Origin: an uncultured Flavobacteriales bacterium
GTDB lineage: Bacteria; Bacteroidota; Bacteroidia; Palsa-965
Direction of reading: 5' to 3'
DNA: 64,000 nucleotides
Assembly: GCA_903873905.1 (NCBI GenBank)
Contig: CAIQQJ010000106.1
Location: forward strand, 1-64,000
Positions 4,013-47,895 of the stretch are shown here, piece after piece. The notes under the pieces are model-generated. The model made no database searches, was not told where the DNA came from, and saw nothing but the letters and a program-made list of their open reading frames with translations. A program made the position numbers and the translations under genes. How positions within the stretch are numbered: position 1 is the stretch's first letter; the number at the start of each line of letters is the position of its first letter.

Positions 4013-4384
4013 ATGAAAAACATCTTCCTATTCTTGATTTTGCTATTCACGGCGAAAGTTGGTTATGCTCAGGATGCTGCCACTACGCATGCAGAATTTA
4101 ATTTTCAGGGTAAAACTTACATCGCTGACTATGATGAAGTGAAACATGTTTTGAAAATGAATGAAGAAGTTTCATTTGAGGTTTATGATGAAACAGGGGA
4201 ATGTATCAAACGTTCTTCCGGATTGACAATTGATTTCAAATCAATTCTGAAGGTTGGCGAGGAAAAAACTTTAACGGTTCGCTTTTTCAAAAAATCGAAG
4301 AAAAAGAAATCCACTTCAAATAAAAATGCCTCCATTAAACAGAAGGGCGAAATCGGCATAATGGTAATTAGGGATCAGAAATAG
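4013..4384 (+). CDS. Hypothetical secreted protein
   Basis: Signal peptide MKNIFLFLILLFTAKVGYAQ; no family recognised. Confidence 0.6.
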   Translation: MKNIFLFLILLFTAKVGYAQDAATTHAEFNFQGKTYIADYDEVKHVLKMNEEVSFEVYDETGECIKRSSGLTIDFKSILKVGEEKTLTVRFFKKSKKKKSTSNKNASIKQKGEIGIMVIRDQK

Positions 4385-4433
4385 TATTGAGTATTGGGTA
4401 TTGAGTATTGAGTATTGGGTATTGGGTATTGAG
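4383..4433 (+). repeat. Tandem heptamer array (RGTATTG)x7
   Basis: agtattg agtattg ggtattg agtattg agtattg ggtattg ggtattg ag, beginning within the TAG stop of the upstream ORF. Confidence 0.9.
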
Positions 4434-4483
4434 ATGGTGGTGGAATATTAAAATAATATTTCCAAAAAAAAACTATACCCTAC

Positions 4484-19800: not shown

Positions 19801-19840
19801 GTTGGAAAGTTTGAAAGTTGCAACGTTGGAAAGTTTAAAA
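19801..19840 (+). repeat. Left inverted-repeat arm: octamer array gttggaaa gtttgaaa gttgcaac gttggaaa gtttaaaa
   Basis: Five tandem 8-nt words starting 5 nt after the sufB stop; inverted partner at 20275-20310. Confidence 0.85.
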
Positions 19841-19848
19841 TAAATAAA

Positions 19849-20313
19849 ATGGGAAAGATTAATCGATTTGAAGATATCATTGCGTGGCAAAAATCTCGTG
19901 AGTTAAATAAATTTATTTACGAAGCGACTCTTAAACATCCCTTTGTAAAAGATTTTGCATTGGTTGATCAGGTTCGACGTTCCAGCATTTCCATTCTTTC
20001 AAATATTGCTGAGGGTTTTGAGCGAAAAGGAGTTCAGGAGTTTATTCAGTTTCTAAATATTGCAAAAGCATCCTGCGCAGAATTAAGAGCACAATTATAT
20101 GTTGCATCCGATTTGGAATACATATCAATAGAAAATGGGAAAGAATTAATTGAGAAGGCAACTGACATAAGTAAAATGATTAGTGGTTTAATAAAATATC
20201 TTGAAGGGAATAAATTAGATGGTCATAAATTTCATGAACCTGAGGAAGAATACGGTGACAATAAACTTGGACAACAACTTTTCAACTTTCAAACATTTCA
20301 ACATTCCAACTGA
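19849..20313 (+). CDS. Four-helix-bundle protein (S23 / 23S rRNA intervening-sequence protein-like), between sufB and sufC
   Basis: MGKINRFEDIIAWQKSRELNKFIYEA..QVRRSSISILSNIAEGFERKGVQEFIQFLNIAKASCAELRAQLYVASDL; family hallmark QxRRxxxSxxSNIAEG. Confidence 0.9.
   Translation: MGKINRFEDIIAWQKSRELNKFIYEATLKHPFVKDFALVDQVRRSSISILSNIAEGFERKGVQEFIQFLNIAKASCAELRAQLYVASDLEYISIENGKELIEKATDISKMISGLIKYLEGNKLDGHKFHEPEEEYGDNKLGQQLFNFQTFQHSN
20275..20310 (+). repeat. Right inverted-repeat arm: caac ttttcaac tttcaaac atttcaac attccaac
   Basis: 4.5 octamers, reverse complement GTTGGAAT GTTGAAAT GTTTGAAA GTTGAAAA GTTG. Encodes the C-terminus of the four-helix-bundle ORF and ends 5 nt before the sufC ATG. Confidence 0.85.
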
Positions 20314-23624: not shown

Positions 23625-24053
23625 ATGAGTATTCAGGAAATCGAGAACGAAATAGTTGAAGAGTTTTCCATGTTTGAACAATGGGATGATAAATACCAAT
23701 ATCTCATTGACATGGGAAAATCGCTGACACCCATCGAGGAAAAATATAAAACTCCTGATCGCTTAATTAAAGGTTGTCAGAGTCAGGTTTGGTTGCACAC
23801 GGAATTAACTGGCGGAAAAATTATTTTTCATGCAGACAGCGACGCCATCATTACAAAAGGAATTGTTGCATTGTTAGTTCGCGTTTTTTCAAATCACACA
23901 CCGAAAGAAATCGTCGATGCACAATTGACATTCATTAATAAGATAGGTCTTGCAGAACACCTCTCACCCACTCGCGCGAACGGATTGGTATCAATGATTA
24001 AACAAATGAAATTGGATGCATTTGCATTACAATCAAATTCAAAAATGGAATGA
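23625..24053 (+). CDS. sufE: SufE family protein
   Basis: EFSMFEQWDDKYQYLIDMGKSL..LIKGCQSQVWL..HLSPTRANGLVSMIKQMK. Confidence 0.95.
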   Translation: MSIQEIENEIVEEFSMFEQWDDKYQYLIDMGKSLTPIEEKYKTPDRLIKGCQSQVWLHTELTGGKIIFHADSDAIITKGIVALLVRVFSNHTPKEIVDAQLTFINKIGLAEHLSPTRANGLVSMIKQMKLDAFALQSNSKME

Positions 24054-24388
24054 ACAACATGAACGTTAACATCGTATCCAACGATCCACAATTAACGCAA
24101 CAAGTAATTGATGCATTGAAGACTTGTTATGATCCTGAAATTCCCGTTGACATTTGGGAACTCGGATTGATTTATGAAATTGACATCAATGATGAAAAGG
24201 AAGTCAAGTTGCTCATGACTTTGACTTCTCCGAATTGTCCCGTTGCCGAATCTTTACCTGCTGATATTGCAGATAAAGTAAGAATGGTACGTGGCGTAAA
24301 ATCATGCGATATAAAACTCACCTTCACTCCACCATGGATAAAAGAGATGATGAGTGAAGTGGCACAATTGGAATTAGGGTTTATGTGA
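24050..24388 (+). CDS. DUF59/MIP18-like SufT/PaaD family protein
   Basis: VIDALKTCYDPEIPVDIWELGLIYEIDI..LTSPNCPVAESLP..VRGVKSCDIKLTFTPPW. Confidence 0.92.
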   Translation: MNNMNVNIVSNDPQLTQQVIDALKTCYDPEIPVDIWELGLIYEIDINDEKEVKLLMTLTSPNCPVAESLPADIADKVRMVRGVKSCDIKLTFTPPWIKEMMSEVAQLELGFM

Positions 24389-24391
24389 AAA

Positions 24392-24497
24392 AGTATTGAG
24401 TATTTAGTATTGGGTATTGAGACTGTGTGAGACAAAATATTTTTCACACACTTTCAGAATACCTTTTCTCAATACTCAATTCGCAATACTCAATACT
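24392..24497. repeat. Gene-less inverted repeat filling the sufT-DUF2480 junction
   Basis: Arms 24392-24421 (agtattgagtatttagtattgggtattgag) and 24468-24497 (ctcaatactcaattcgcaatactcaatact) match 26/30 as inverted repeats; inner TGTGTGA/TCACACA stem at 24424-24430/24444-24450. Confidence 0.9.
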
Positions 24498-24502
24498 AGC
24501 AA

Positions 24503-25009
24503 ATGGAGGAAATCACAAACAAAGTCGCCAATAGCGGATTGATCACAATCGATCTTGGAGAATTATATCTTCCTGGCGAACGCGTGGTGATTGACATCAA
24601 GGACCAACTTTTTCAGGAATTGATTTTACGCGAAAAAGATTTTCGTGAATTTATCAAGTCGCACGATTGGTCGCAATACAAGGACAAGTATGTTGCATTA
24701 ACCTGTTCGGCAGATGCAATCATTCCGGATTGGACATGGATGTTATTGGCATCAGCATTGCAACCATTTGCAAAGAAAATTGTTTTTGGTTCAATTGAAG
24801 TTTTGGAAACTGTTTTGTTTGATGAAACACTTTTGAATTTGGATATTGAAAAATACCGCGATGCTCGAATTGTTATTAAAGGTTGTGGAGATAAACCCGT
24901 TCCAAAATCAGCTTACATCGAATTGACAAGAAAACTCCAGCCAATTGTAAAAAGTCTCATGTACGGTGAACCTTGTTCTACCGTTCCGATTTTCAAACAA
25001 GCCAAATAA
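24503..25009 (+). CDS. DUF2480 family protein
   Basis: ITIDLGELYLPGERVVIDIKDQLF..LREKDFREFIKSHDWSQYKDKYVALTCSADAIIPDWTWML. Confidence 0.85.
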   Translation: MEEITNKVANSGLITIDLGELYLPGERVVIDIKDQLFQELILREKDFREFIKSHDWSQYKDKYVALTCSADAIIPDWTWMLLASALQPFAKKIVFGSIEVLETVLFDETLLNLDIEKYRDARIVIKGCGDKPVPKSAYIELTRKLQPIVKSLMYGEPCSTVPIFKQAK

Positions 25010-36236: not shown

Positions 36237-37253
36237 TTAGATAAAATCCGTTTTTTTCATATTCAACCACTCCATAGCAGCTCCACTCAAAACCATTTCC
36301 TTTTTCGCATCATCCCAATTCATAGAACGAATTAGTTCGCCAGGAATATTTTCTCCCAATGGAAAAGGATAATCACTTCCTAAAGCAACACGATTTGCGC
36401 CAAATTGATTCACTACAAAATCCAACATGTTCGGATCGTGCACGAGTGAATCAATCCAGAATTTACCAATGTAATTTTTGGGAGAAACATCATTGTCAAT
36501 CGCAACCAAATCGGGACGACAATCAAAACCGTGTTGCAATCTTCCAACTGTCGAGGGAAAAGATCCCCCACCGTGTGCGAATGCAATTCGAAGTTTGGGT
36601 AATTTTTCCATCACACCGCCAAAAACCAATGAAGCGATTGCACGCGTAGTTTCTGCTGGCATTCCCACGAGCCATGGCAACCAATATTTCTGCATTTCCT
36701 TTTCACCCATCATTTCCCAAGGATGAATAAAAACAGCCATGTCCAATGTTTCACACGCTGAAAATATTTCAAGAAATTTTGATTCATTCAAATTTTCCTG
36801 ATTGATGTTTGTCCCAATCTGAATTCCTTTCAGTCCGATATTTTTACAACGTTCCAATTCCTGTATCGCCAATTTTGAATCTTGCATGGGAATTGTTCCG
36901 AGACCCGCAAACCGTTTTGGATAACGAGTGACGATTTCCGCAATATGATCATTGAGAAATTTTGAAATCTCCAAACAGTCATTCGGTTTTGCCCAATAGG
37001 AAAACATTACCGGCACAGTGGAAAGCACTTGCACATTCACATGATGCTGATCGCATTCTTTCATCCGCTTCTCTGCGCTCCAACAATTATCTTCAATTTC
37101 ACGAAAGAATTTTCCGTCATCACGAATCATCCTCGCACAACAATTTTTATGGTGATCCAATTGAATGAATCCGCCATACCCGAATTTTTCTTTCCAACCC
37201 GGAATGTTTTCTGGAAGAATGTGGGTGTGGATATCGATGGAGAAGTGGTTCAT
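36237..37253 (-). CDS. Amidohydrolase, 2-amino-3-carboxymuconate-6-semialdehyde decarboxylase-like
   Basis: SIDIHTHILPENIPGW..RLGTIPMQ-like GLGTIPMQDSKLAIQELERC..GIQIGTNIN..FIHPWEMMG..FAHGGGSFPSTVGRLQHGFDCRPDL..LGSDYPFPLGE. Confidence 0.85.
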   Translation of the reverse strand: MNHFSIDIHTHILPENIPGWKEKFGYGGFIQLDHHKNCCARMIRDDGKFFREIEDNCWSAEKRMKECDQHHVNVQVLSTVPVMFSYWAKPNDCLEISKFLNDHIAEIVTRYPKRFAGLGTIPMQDSKLAIQELERCKNIGLKGIQIGTNINQENLNESKFLEIFSACETLDMAVFIHPWEMMGEKEMQKYWLPWLVGMPAETTRAIASLVFGGVMEKLPKLRIAFAHGGGSFPSTVGRLQHGFDCRPDLVAIDNDVSPKNYIGKFWIDSLVHDPNMLDFVVNQFGANRVALGSDYPFPLGENIPGELIRSMNWDDAKKEMVLSGAAMEWLNMKKTDFI

Positions 37254-37261
37254 AAAAATTG

Positions 37262-37287
37262 TGTGGTCTGTGCATTGTGCACAGTGC
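37262..37287. repeat. Inverted-repeat arm: heptamers TGTGGTC TGTGCAT TGTGCAC AGTGC(GC)
   Basis: 26-bp core matching the reverse complement of 37684-37709 with one mismatch. Confidence 0.95.
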
Positions 37288-37293
37288 GCGGTT

Positions 37294-37674
37294 TTATTTG
37301 ATTGCGATTTTCTTTTCGTAATGTTTTATGAGTCCGCTCAAAAGTTTTCTTGTGGTTGAAACGCTTTCAAAAATTTGAGCCAGGTCAGTATTCTTTAAAT
37401 AATCTAAATCCTGTGCTAAATAAAGTTGTGTTTCTACTTCATAAAGTGATCCACGAGCAATAAAGAGAAACTTCTTTGTATCCTTTGCGGAATTTCTTCC
37501 AATACCCTCAGCAATATTTGAAGGAATTGAAACAGCAGCTCTCCTGATTTGATTTGTAAGTCCAAATTGTTCCGCATGTGGAAAATCAGTCGATGCTGTA
37601 TAGATTGACTTAACTAATTTTCGTGCTTCTTTCCAAGCATTCAATTCTGTGTAACTTTTACTAGTTGTTTCCAT
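37294..37674 (-). CDS. Four-helix-bundle protein (S23/IVP-like), between 3-hydroxyanthranilate dioxygenase and ACMSD genes
   Basis: METTSKSYTELNAWKEARKLVKSIY..QIRRAAVSIPSNIAEGIGRNSAKDTKKFLFIARGSLYEVETQLYLAQDL; start moved from 37710. Confidence 0.9.
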   Translation of the reverse strand: METTSKSYTELNAWKEARKLVKSIYTASTDFPHAEQFGLTNQIRRAAVSIPSNIAEGIGRNSAKDTKKFLFIARGSLYEVETQLYLAQDLDYLKNTDLAQIFESVSTTRKLLSGLIKHYEKKIAIK

Positions 37675-37683
37675 AAACACACA

Positions 37684-37709
37684 GCACTGTGCACAAAGCA
37701 CAGACCACA
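37684..37709. repeat. Inverted-repeat arm partner of 37262-37287
   Basis: gcactgtgcacaaagcacagaccaca; reverse complement continues as heptamers TGTGGTC TGTGCTT TGTGCAC AGTGCTG TGTGTTT. Confidence 0.95.
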
Positions 37710-37714
37710 TTTTT

Positions 37715-38248
37715 TTAATGACTACTAACTTTTACTTCTTCTGGTGGAATCATTACATAACCACATTTCTTGCATGTCCTTAAATCTTCACTGCCATAAA
37801 ATTTCGCGAACACACCTTGAAATTGATTGACAATATCGGTAAGCGCAAAATATTCTTCGTACAATTTTGAATTGCATTTTTCACAGAACCAAAGCAAACC
37901 ATCTTTTTCATTTGCGTGTCGTTTGCGTTCCATAACGAGCCCAATTGAATTTGCTCCTCGAACAGGATTATGTGGAACATTCGGTGGCAAGAGAAAAATA
38001 TCACCTTCCCTAATCGGAACATCAATTGATTTTCCATCTTCCTGAATTTTCACGAGAATATCCCCTTCGAGTTGATAGAAAAACTCTTCGCTCTCATTGA
38101 AGTGATAATCCTTTCTGGAATTTGGTCCGCCGACCACCATTACGATGAATTCGGTGTCTTTGTAAACAACTTTATTGTTTACGGGCGGTTTTAATAAATG
38201 ACGATTTTCGTCAATCCATTTTTTGAAGTTAAACGGACGTGTGATCAT
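37715..38248 (-). CDS. 3-hydroxyanthranilate 3,4-dioxygenase
   Basis: FNFKKWIDENRHLLKPPVNNKVVYKDTEFIVMVVGGPNSRKDYHFNESEEFFYQLEGD..LPPNVPHNPVR..CEKCNSKLYEE..CKKCGY rubredoxin-like motif. Confidence 0.92.
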   Translation of the reverse strand: MITRPFNFKKWIDENRHLLKPPVNNKVVYKDTEFIVMVVGGPNSRKDYHFNESEEFFYQLEGDILVKIQEDGKSIDVPIREGDIFLLPPNVPHNPVRGANSIGLVMERKRHANEKDGLLWFCEKCNSKLYEEYFALTDIVNQFQGVFAKFYGSEDLRTCKKCGYVMIPPEEVKVSSH

Positions 38249-42073: not shown

Positions 42074-43171
42074 ATGAAAATAAAAGTTTCCCTGCTTGCT
42101 ATTTTTATAAGCACATTCCTTTCCGCACAAATTACGGTTTCACTCCTGAGTTCAACTGCAAGTTGTCTTTTGCCATGCAACGGAACCGTGAACGTAATTG
42201 CAACAGGAGGAACTCCACCGTATTCATACACTATTCTTCCCAATGCAATTAACAATGCCACTGGTAGTTTCACAGGTATTTGTTCTGGTTCTTACACTGT
42301 CACTGTTACAGATGCAACTTTTAACATTGGAACTTATTCTTCAACAGTTGCAACCATTTCTGCGCCGAGTATCACAACTGTCACCACAACTGGAATATTG
42401 CCACCTTCAAACTACGAAGCAACTGTTACTTATACAGGTGGACAACCGCGATACATTGTGCAATGGTTCTATGAGCCATCCGGAGTGATGATTAGACAGG
42501 ATCTTGTTTCGACAATGAATGATACAATAACACATCTCTCTCCTGGAGATTATGGTGTGATCGTAACTGATTCCGTCAATAGTGTTTCTGGATGCCAAGG
42601 ATTAAATCAAGCACCCTATTTATTTTCCATCTGTGACCCATCTATTGGTGTAGGCTTTATCAATTACACACCAAATGACACCGTATGTCCTGGCACACCA
42701 ATTACGATCAATTACATTACTGTACCTATGGGTCAGATCAATATTTTATATCAGGTTTTCATGTCCGATAATCCAAATTGTGATCCTTCCGCATCCAATG
42801 GCACTTTTTCATGCAACATAAGTCAAACAACAACATTCACTGGTTTTTGGGCTTATTCAGCTACTTGTGCTCCTATTCCCTTTGCACCAGTCACCATTAC
42901 CGTTCTTCCATGTGTGGGAATAAATGAGCAGCAGTCGACTAATTTTGTTTCCATTTTTCCAAATCCTGGCAATGGAGCTTTCACTTTAAAAACGAATCAG
43001 ACTACTGCAGTTCAATTGGAGATCTTTGATGAAACAGGAAGGAACTGTTATACTTCATCTTCAAAAAATGGAGACGAAATTTTTACTGGACTGAAATCTG
43101 GAATTTATTTCATTCGCATTCTTTCTGATGCTGGAACCAAAATAGAAAAGTTGGTGATTACCAATAAGTAA
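42074..43171 (+). CDS. Secreted protein with T9SS type A sorting domain
   Basis: Signal peptide; SprB-like TGGTPPYSYTI; CTD VSIFPNPGNGAFTL..GIYFIRILSDAGTKIEKLVITNK. Confidence 0.8.
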   Translation: MKIKVSLLAIFISTFLSAQITVSLLSSTASCLLPCNGTVNVIATGGTPPYSYTILPNAINNATGSFTGICSGSYTVTVTDATFNIGTYSSTVATISAPSITTVTTTGILPPSNYEATVTYTGGQPRYIVQWFYEPSGVMIRQDLVSTMNDTITHLSPGDYGVIVTDSVNSVSGCQGLNQAPYLFSICDPSIGVGFINYTPNDTVCPGTPITINYITVPMGQINILYQVFMSDNPNCDPSASNGTFSCNISQTTTFTGFWAYSATCAPIPFAPVTITVLPCVGINEQQSTNFVSIFPNPGNGAFTLKTNQTTAVQLEIFDETGRNCYTSSSKNGDEIFTGLKSGIYFIRILSDAGTKIEKLVITNK

Positions 43172-43415
43172 CCTCACCCCTTTTGTGAGTTTGTTTTAAG
43201 CAGAAACTTTGGAGAATTCCCCTCTCCGAAGGAGAGGGGTGAGTGAGACCTCAGATGAAGGAGAAGCAATTAATATTAGTTTGTTCAGAAATTTCAATTT
43301 CAAAAAACACATACTCGAAATATTTTTGAATACCGAGAACGTTCTCGCCCCTCTCCTTCGGAGAGGGGGATTCTGAAATGTTTCTCACAATTACAAACTC
43401 CGTAAAGGGGTGAGG
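43172..43415. repeat. Long imperfect inverted repeat spanning stop codon to stop codon
   Basis: Outer arms of about 73 bp (43172-43243 and about 43343-43415) with inner palindrome CCCCTCTCCGAAGGAGAGGGG in each arm. Confidence 0.9.
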
Positions 43416-44114
43416 TTATTTTGCAATCAAACGGAATCCTCTTCCGTGAATATTCATGATTTCTACGGTTGGATCATCCTTCAAATATTTTCTAAGCTTC
43501 GCGATATATACATCCATACTGCGTGAATTGAAATAACTGTCGTCACCCCAAATTGTATTCAATGCGAATGAACGATCAAGTACTTCGTTTTTATGAAGCG
43601 CCAGCAAACGCAAAAGATCCGCTTCTTTCGAAGTAAGTTTCTGCGGCTTATTGCCGAATTCCAACATTTGTCTTGTATAATCGTATTTGTAATCGCCGAT
43701 CGTAAAAAGAGTTTGCTCCATGTTGAGCGCGCCACCTTTTGTTCTTCGGAGAATTGCCTTTAAACGCAACAGCAATTCTTCCATGCTGAATGGTTTGGTA
43801 ATATAATCATCGGCACCAGCATTGAATCCCTCAATTGTATCTTCCTTCATCGACTTCGCGGTGAGAAATACAACAGGAATGTCCTTGTTGATGGTTCGGA
43901 TTTCTTTCGCGAGTGTGTAACCGTCTTTAACGGGCATCATCACATCGAGCAGACAGAGATCAAAAGTTCCTTTTCGGAACTGATCAAATCCTTCTTTTCC
44001 GTTTGTCGCGAGAACGGTTGCATATCCCTTCGCGTCGAGATATTCCTGCAGAAGTTTTCCGAGATTCGGATCGTCCTCAGCGAGGAGAATTTTGGCTTTT
44101 GTTTCTGTACTCAT
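43416..44114 (-). CDS. OmpR/PhoB-family response regulator
   Basis: ILLAEDDPNLG..LCLLDVMMPVKDGYTL..VFLTAKS..DDYITKPFS plus winged-helix C-terminus. Confidence 0.93.
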   Translation of the reverse strand: MSTETKAKILLAEDDPNLGKLLQEYLDAKGYATVLATNGKEGFDQFRKGTFDLCLLDVMMPVKDGYTLAKEIRTINKDIPVVFLTAKSMKEDTIEGFNAGADDYITKPFSMEELLLRLKAILRRTKGGALNMEQTLFTIGDYKYDYTRQMLEFGNKPQKLTSKEADLLRLLALHKNEVLDRSFALNTIWGDDSYFNSRSMDVYIAKLRKYLKDDPTVEIMNIHGRGFRLIAK

Positions 44115-45843: not shown

Positions 45844-47235
45844 ATGAAACATAAATTACTTTTTACCATTAGTCTGTTTGTTGCAATGGCAATGAGCGCT
45901 CAAACAATTCCGAACAGTGGATTTGAATTCTGGAACGCTTCTTCAATTGACAATCCATTGTATTATCCACAAACTTCCAATCAACAGGCACTTCAAGCTG
46001 GCCTTCCGCAAAATGCGTTGAAAGTTACAGATCCACAACAAGGAACATTAGCCATTCAATTAAACACGGTTACCAATGGCGTTGATACAATGTTTGGATA
46101 TTTTCTCAATGGAGATCCAAATTCACTTGCTGGAGGAATTCCTTATTCACAACATCCAATTACGCTAACGGGCTATTACAAATGCAACGTCATGGCGGGT
46201 GACACTGCTTTCGTTTTTATCGTTTTTAAACAAGGAGGAATTGCGGTTAGTCAGGATTTCGCAATATTCACTGGTAATCATTCTTCCGCTTATGTACCAT
46301 TTACACTCACTTTAACAATTCCTGCACTTGCAACTCCCGATAGCATAATCGTTGGGGCGGCATCAAGCAATGCGTTTGTCAACCGTGGAATTCCAGGCAG
46401 CATGTTGCAACTTGATAATCTCACTTTCACTGGAGTTTCTAGTCAACCTACAATGATGAACGGAAGTTTTGAAAATTGGATTTCCATCAACACTAGCACG
46501 CCACAAAATTGGGGAACTGCAGGTGATTTGATTTATCAAACTAATGATGCACACACCGGAACTTACGCAGTGGAGATGAATACTTTTTCATATGGAGGTC
46601 CTAACGTAAGTCCTTCCTACATCACCAATGGAATTTTCCCTCCTCAATCAGGTCCACAAGGTGGGCGTCCTTACACTTTGTTGAATGATACACTTTGCGG
46701 TTGGTATAAATACATCCCAGTTGGCATTGACAGCGCAACAATTTACCTTTCAACATCTCAAAATACAGTTGGTGTTGGAGGCGGAGTTCTTGGATTGCCC
46801 CCAGTTTCTGTTTATACATTTTTCTCGATGCCATTTTCAAGTTTCATGCAACCTGACACCTTGTTGATTGTTCTTGCATCAGGATACAATGGATCGGACG
46901 CTTCGAATGTTGGAAGTGTTTTCAAAGTCGATGATCTTTATTTGAAATCTTCTGCTGTTGGTATTGCTGTTTTGAACTGGAATACTTTTGGAAAAGTTCA
47001 ACTATATCCTAATCCTTCAAGTGTGGATTGTTGGATGGAATTCGACAATAATGAGAATTCCCCAATGAAAATGACAGTCACCGATGAACTTGGAAAAACA
47101 GTTTCTGAAATTGAAATAACAGGAACAGGACACCAGCGTCAGCACATTGACACGTCTGTTTTGTCAAAAGGAATTTATGTTGTTACCCTTACACAAAACG
47201 GAAATCATACTTCTAGAAAGCTTTTCGTAGATTAA
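45844..47235 (+). CDS. Secreted protein with T9SS type A sorting domain
   Basis: MKHKLLFTISLFVAMAMSAQTIPNSGFEFWN; CTD VQLYPNPSSVDCWMEF..GIYVVTLTQNGNHTSRKLFVD. Confidence 0.82.
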   Translation: MKHKLLFTISLFVAMAMSAQTIPNSGFEFWNASSIDNPLYYPQTSNQQALQAGLPQNALKVTDPQQGTLAIQLNTVTNGVDTMFGYFLNGDPNSLAGGIPYSQHPITLTGYYKCNVMAGDTAFVFIVFKQGGIAVSQDFAIFTGNHSSAYVPFTLTLTIPALATPDSIIVGAASSNAFVNRGIPGSMLQLDNLTFTGVSSQPTMMNGSFENWISINTSTPQNWGTAGDLIYQTNDAHTGTYAVEMNTFSYGGPNVSPSYITNGIFPPQSGPQGGRPYTLLNDTLCGWYKYIPVGIDSATIYLSTSQNTVGVGGGVLGLPPVSVYTFFSMPFSSFMQPDTLLIVLASGYNGSDASNVGSVFKVDDLYLKSSAVGIAVLNWNTFGKVQLYPNPSSVDCWMEFDNNENSPMKMTVTDELGKTVSEIEITGTGHQRQHIDTSVLSKGIYVVTLTQNGNHTSRKLFVD

Positions 47236-47242
47236 AATTATT

Positions 47243-47329
47243 GGGTACGAATTACGAATTTTTGCGAATAAATACGAAAAATGAAAATGCAATTCGTAAC
47301 TATTCGTTTTTGATTCGTAATTCGTACCC
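47243..47329. repeat. Gene-less inverted repeat between convergent genes
   Basis: Arms gggtacgaattacgaatttttgcgaataaatacgaa (47243-47278) and attcgtaactattcgtttttgattcgtaattcgtaccc (47292-47329). Confidence 0.9.
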
Positions 47330-47895
47330 TATTTTTTCAACGACCATATCGCAGAATCCCACCAGCCTTTGTAAAAATAATTTTCCTTGTAATAGGCTTC
47401 CATTTGGAATCCTAATTTTTCAAGCACACGTTTCGAAGCCATGTGATCGGGAGTGATATTCGCCTCGATGGAATGTAAATTCATTTTATTGAATCCGAAT
47501 TCAATTACAGCTTTAACGGCTTCCGTCATAATGCCCTTATTCCAAAATTCAGGATTCAATTCATAACCCATATCGGCTCGGAAATGCTGATGAACTATTT
47601 TTTTGAATCCAACAGACCCAATTAATTTTCCGCTTTCCTTTTCCTCAATTCCCCATCGCACCCCATTTCCCTCCGCGAACAGTTTTTGCCAAGAATAAAT
47701 TAATTTTTCGGCTTGTTTTATTTCTTCAAAAACAGGCTCGCCTCGTTGTAACATTACACGCGGATCAGCATATAAATGGAAAATTATTGGAGCATCAATT
47801 CCCGATACCAAACGTAAGCGCAAACGTTCGGTATGTAATGCTGGGAATATTTTTGGAAAACTTAATTCCATTTGATAGCTAAGATAATGGAACAA
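47329..47895 (-). CDS. GNAT family N-acetyltransferase (RimJ/RimL-like)
   Basis: TERLRLRLVSGIDAPIIF..WGIEEKESGKLIGSVGF..ADMGYELNPEFWNKGIMTEAVKAVIEFGFNKMNLHSIEANITPDHMASKRVLEKLGF. Confidence 0.9.
   Translation of the reverse strand: MFHYLSYQMELSFPKIFPALHTERLRLRLVSGIDAPIIFHLYADPRVMLQRGEPVFEEIKQAEKLIYSWQKLFAEGNGVRWGIEEKESGKLIGSVGFKKIVHQHFRADMGYELNPEFWNKGIMTEAVKAVIEFGFNKMNLHSIEANITPDHMASKRVLEKLGFQMEAYYKENYFYKGWWDSAIWSLKK

Follow-up and report, generated by a model that had tools for sequence, protein, structure and literature searches.

A gene-less inverted repeat between sufT and a DUF2480 gene is a probable member of a mobile, IVP-associated family of heptamer-armed elements in Bacteroidota

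In the stretch of DNA analysed here (the window; 64,000 nucleotides from an uncultured Flavobacteriales bacterium), the spacer between sufT and a DUF2480 gene is occupied by a long inverted repeat that carries no gene. The question is whether this is a host regulatory hairpin or, as the original prediction had it, a gene-less version of gene-bearing inverted repeats. The two long arms predicted between the genes were confirmed (Table 1); they are 31 nt each, 87% complementary, and separated by 44 nt. The left arm, which had been called heptameric, is indeed a period-7 array, and so is the right arm, with 4.3 copies of GTATTGR heptamers in each. The gene coordinates bear out the predicted spacing, with 3 nt between the sufT stop and the left arm and 5 nt between the right arm and the DUF2480 ATG. 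Folding of the corresponding RNA gave -40.9 kcal/mol, whereas 200 dinucleotide-shuffled versions averaged -16.7 (z = -9.1; no shuffle was as good), and the computed fold includes the anticipated two-part stem with its inner TGTGTGA/TCACACA helix. The inverted repeat is far above the chance level.

Table 1. Coordinates of the focal element, its neighbours, and related elements (window positions unless a contig handle is given)
Feature	Position	Strand	Details
Left arm	24392-24422	.	outer A, then GTATTGA GTATTTA GTATTGG GTATTGA GA (four heptamers)
Loop without gene	24423-24466	.	holds inner TGTGTGA/TCACACA stem
Right arm, inverted	24467-24497	.	TC TCAATAC TCAATTC GCAATAC TCAATAC T (four heptamers)
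TA directly outside last CAATAC core	24497-24498	.	possible target-site TA
sufT (PF01883), upstream gene	24050-24388	+	stop TGA
DUF2480 gene (PF10652), downstream gene	24503-25009	+	ATG at 24503
Solo array, same family as focal element	4383-4434	+	seven GTATTGR heptamers; its TA+G is the TAG stop of an upstream 123-aa ORF
IVP gene (PF05635) element between sufB and sufC	19801-20302	+	8-mer arms (GTTGGAAA type)
IVP gene (PF05635) element	37250-37721	-	TGTGCAT-type arms
IVP gene (PF05635) within GTATTGA arms	C171:44575-45040 of the window's genome		
FRG-domain gene (PF08867) enclosed by GTATTGA arms	C171:42226-43394 (L013:1227-2395)		same gene cluster as the same-armed IVP gene

The element does not meet the criterion for an intrinsic terminator, a GC-rich stem followed by a T-run. 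As had been claimed, there is no T-run after the right arm; no terminator-like site was detected at the element, and the region's sole such site is 3' of DUF2480. An Rfam search with the element returned only microRNA hairpin matches at chance level.

The sufT-DUF2480 junction was then compared among Bacteroidota, at the level of species only. The spacer is 0-27 nt long in 19 of 39 distinct junctions (a hand count, omitting two duplicates and one misread junction). Heptamer inverted repeats of different motifs were recognised by eye in six junctions besides the focal one (L048, L051, L058, L104, L106, and L120), repeats of the TTCGAC..GCTCA type are present in four (L046, L047, L050, and L098), and one junction (L166) contains an inserted ORF that reads as DUF4160-like, no family search having been made. 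The comparison that had been suggested in search of empty alleles showed, between species, a near-empty junction in roughly half of the relatives, and different inverted repeats occupying it in others. Judging from these sequences, insertion at sufT-DUF2480 appears to have happened repeatedly, because the repeats that fill the other junctions have different heptamers. The exact fit of the element to its junction, stressed in the original prediction, does recur at other copies but is not special, since it is expected of insertion into a short spacer. At sufB-sufC, where the window has an IVP gene, the closest relative has an empty junction of 29 nt, while a genome of another family has an IVP element there with arms unlike those in the window. 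Short genes that look nucleotidyltransferase-like, by eye only, occur in the suf operon of relatives between sufA and sufB (G005 and G016) and between sufC and sufD (G003).

Searching the window's own genome with the focal element yielded dozens of matches, and individual reading of the loci gave about 23 with GTATTGR arms. The majority are gene-less inverted pairs; the commonest form has four heptamers per arm, a variable seventh base, and the inner end GTATTGAGA, and some arrays exceed four units. Eight or nine loci (one of them borderline) consist of a solo array for which no partner could be detected; apart from the borderline one at C167, no candidate partner of a solo arm exceeded the shuffled range. 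The copies are intergenic and lie at many unrelated gene pairs, often a few nucleotides from a stop or start codon; two solo arrays (C131 and C6) fall within a predicted ORF of >160 aa that is possibly not a genuine gene. No similarity beyond the shuffled range was found among the loops of the gene-less copies, the focal loop included. Two GTATTGR elements contain genes, both in one fatty-acid-oxidation gene cluster, and the IVP-bearing one has the same arms as the focal element. The proposed kinship with gene-bearing elements is therefore upheld in the genome, where GTATTGA arms flank IVP and FRG genes, but not with respect to the gene-bearing elements of the window itself, which have other motifs. 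Apparent large cargos near prfC, lepB, fbp, and a DUF4349-like gene were judged from their protein sequences to be host genes with an array on either side, and they were left uncounted.

Heptamer arrays are not limited to this motif. The census took in 460 kb of the window's genome together with targeted loci; the 460 kb contained 54 period-7 arrays versus 1.7 in shuffled sequence, and the excess over shuffles was far smaller for other periods. Several further motifs also make gene-less inverted pairs in this genome. Within the window, a gene-less inverted repeat with TACGAAT-like heptamers is located at 47232-47340, and an inverted repeat of the CCCTCTCC..GGAGAGGGG type, with 78-nt arms that are 81% complementary, at 43166-43421; L174 has a repeat similar to the latter where its DUF2480 begins.

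S23/IVP four-helix-bundle genes are common in Bacteroidota; to our knowledge, neither a function nor a catalytic activity has been established for their products. The IVP studied here matches the NCBI 'four helix bundle protein', the solved protein XCC0516 of PDB entry 2gsc, and, weakly, Avd. Fourteen IVP genes of the window's genome score above the Pfam cut-off, and most of them lie between inverted 7- or 8-mer arms, with a motif individual to each. When IVP loci of this genome and its relatives were combined, a significant flanking inverted repeat was found at 81 of 104, the best arm period being 7 in 53 and 8 in 19, and 63 passed a stricter period-7/8 test. The corresponding numbers for 344 control genes, all of them from the window's genome, were 14 and 5; loci were delimited in slightly different ways, by the end of the profile match for IVP and by the ORF end for controls. 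The closer two IVPs are in sequence identity, the more similar are their arms (Mantel r = 0.24, a value reached in no permutation out of 2000), and neighbours in the IVP tree have arm motifs in common. The GTATTGA-armed IVP groups with proteins from three other genomes, which have NNTGAGA or NNTTAGA arms. Of 16 gene-less elements in the window's genome, 11 best match the arms of its own IVPs, with about 2.5 expected by chance; for the full set of 21 elements, drawn from four genomes, the expected number is 2.7. An IVP gene 57% identical to the GTATTGA-armed one stands beside the same thiolase gene in a relative (G005:C133:36963-38504) without detectable arms, and is possibly an old shared insertion. 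The hallmark of the family is a pair of inverted arms, each ~30 nt long and composed of about four repeat units, which are 7-mers or, in some subfamilies, 8-mers; full members enclose a gene between the arms, most often IVP/S23 (PF05635).

The outer ends of the arms point to a target site. TA is found directly outside 19 of 36 GTATTG ends, versus a background of 4.5% in the flanks (p about 1e-16). At C44, C80, and the FRG element, the stop codon of the upstream gene consists of a host TA and the element's G, and deletion of the element with one TA produces an in-frame TAA, while deletion of both TAs does not. No in-frame TAA is restored by the former deletion at C171a and C118. One of these three sites is rsgA-dtd, where relatives G001 and G002 have an empty junction with a short spacer, and their stop at the corresponding codon is TAA. 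We consider duplication of a TA target at insertion likely, though not proven, because of the TA excess at ends, the reading-frame logic of the stop codons, and the TAA stops in G001 and G002. The pattern is absent at several sites; at the focal element, the left-side counterpart of the right-hand TA is AA. At rsgA-dtd of another relative (L291, from G003), a direct GAACTTG/GAGTTGA heptamer array follows immediately after TA, so that the stop is TAG, in the codon position where it also lies in the window's genome.

Our preferred reading, to which we assign a probability of about 0.72, is that the focal element belongs, as a gene-less, non-autonomous, IVP-associated copy, to a family of small mobile insertions spread across Bacteroidota. 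It has the arms that define the family, inverted and built of about four 7- or 8-mers each. Dispersal, the presence of gene-bearing and gene-less forms in one genome, near-empty or independently filled junctions, and covariation of arms with IVP are observed. By inference, the element would have been inserted between sufT and DUF2480, with a TA dinucleotide as the probable site, and would spread in trans, helped by or together with the same-armed IVP-bearing element at C171. In the transcript, the arms may form a long hairpin, known only as a predicted stem, which RNase III could cut, and insertion between genes of an operon might be tolerated because of such cutting. No catalytic activity that moves the arms has been identified, and any role of IVP in movement is inferred. 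Several observations weigh against this reading. Insertion was not seen directly, and the empty junctions come from other species only. Solo arms exist, and simple copying of a unit does not predict unrelated loops unless loops diverge fast or arms move separately. The unrelated loops suggest that it is the arm, and not the whole unit, that is conserved or moved, as in REP/BIME. Finally, IVP is not strictly required, since the same arms enclose the FRG gene and, in the control set, such arms enclose host genes.

Other origins can be weighed against the same data. The very stable RNA fold between co-directional genes is what would be expected of a terminator, attenuator, or mRNA-stability element controlling DUF2480 or sufT. 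We regard such a host hairpin as very improbable, given that it lacks a T-run, that half of the relatives have a junction of only 0-27 nt, the filled ones holding unrelated sequences, and that the same arms are found between many unrelated gene pairs; the prediction that the element is not a terminator but a gene-less counterpart of gene-bearing repeats is supported by the same-armed IVP and FRG elements, the variation of the junction, and the missing T-run. Heptamers could also have grown in place by slippage, with the inverted partner made by template switching and no mobility involved, a scheme that suits arms that are tandem arrays, copies whose loops are unrelated, and arrays that are solo or longer than four units. 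It does not readily explain one motif at about 23 sites with a modal four units and defined outer and inner ends, the TA at outer ends, or the association and covariation of arms with IVP genes, and we think it improbable.

A conventional transposon, for example a TA-duplicating one of the IS630/Tc1 type, might instead have given rise to the element as a MITE, IVP genes being mere passengers. TA at the ends agrees with this, as does the FRG gene as another possible cargo. The arm motif, however, co-varies with IVP phylogeny, and no match to the DDE_3 transposase (PF13358; IS630/Tc1-type) was found in the window's genome, other DDE families being outside the search. Nor were heptamer arms found around three Y1_Tnp genes, two of which were flank-tested and one, at a contig edge, inspected. 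A single reverse transcriptase was also found. With transposase families other than DDE_3 and Y1 outside the search, we consider a conventional MITE unlikely. Repeated ATCTATCCCGTTAGGGATTA-type palindromes precede one Y1 transposase gene, which lies close to the start of its contig (C137:300-644 of the window's genome; L195).

A broader and more speculative proposal can be made, which we offer as a conjecture that is doubtful at present: IVP/S23 would be the dedicated partner in a large class of mobile elements, where every oligomeric IVP would recognise a heptamer array of its own, as DNA or as an RNA hairpin, and this recognition would move both IVP-bearing and gene-less copies, in the manner of REP/RAYT but without a classical transposase. 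The location of most IVPs inside heptamer-armed inverted repeats whose motif tracks phylogeny provides a protein of no known function with a testable partner, the arms. It also accounts for many anonymous intergenic hairpins, which would be gene-less relatives of IVP elements, suggests a possible route to the origin of rRNA intervening sequences, and makes the focal hairpin a concrete lead on how four-helix-bundle proteins and their repeats spread. We found no description of IVP with heptamer or inverted repeats in open-access papers; subscription journals may hold one.

Four known systems can be compared with the focal element. Direct TAACTGA heptamer repeats occur in Beggiatoaceae, Cyanobacteria, and some Bacteroidetes (PMC4679880). 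Like the focal family, they are intergenic seven-base tandem repeats, often a few nucleotides from genes, but they are direct, have one motif, and are rarely inverted; a term search of that paper found no link to IVP. In BrickBuilt, a MITE of Porphyromonas gingivalis, small inverted ends enclose a 23-nt tandem repeat, and the distance to genes is 49-591 nt (PMC4596501). BrickBuilt too is small, intergenic, and repeated, with inverted ends and tandem repeats, and comes from Bacteroidota, whereas in the focal family the inverted ends themselves are the tandem array and genes are a few nucleotides away. The 23S rRNA intervening sequence (IVS) of Coxiella has a ~28-bp terminal-repeat stem, which is cut by RNase III, and an S23/IVP ORF, and such sequences are considered selfish and horizontally acquired (PMC4990558). 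Inverted terminal repeats forming a stem, and the same protein family in full members, are shared. The focal element differs in lying between the protein-coding genes sufT and DUF2480 instead of in 23S rRNA and in lacking an ORF, and its family in having heptamer arrays as arms, many copies per genome, and many motifs. REPs occur singly or in inverted pairs and are tied to RAYT (PMC3733652). The focal family shares with REP/BIME and RAYT the form of short extragenic repeats that stand alone or as inverted pairs and that also flank a related gene; in the focal family, the arms co-vary with this gene as well. The gene of the focal family, however, encodes a four-helix bundle and not an HUH tyrosine transposase, and the repeats have a heptamer structure and no GTAG tag. 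Judged by analogy, the focal element resembles IVS, REP/RAYT, MITE/BrickBuilt, and TAACTGA repeats, and would be a member of none of them.
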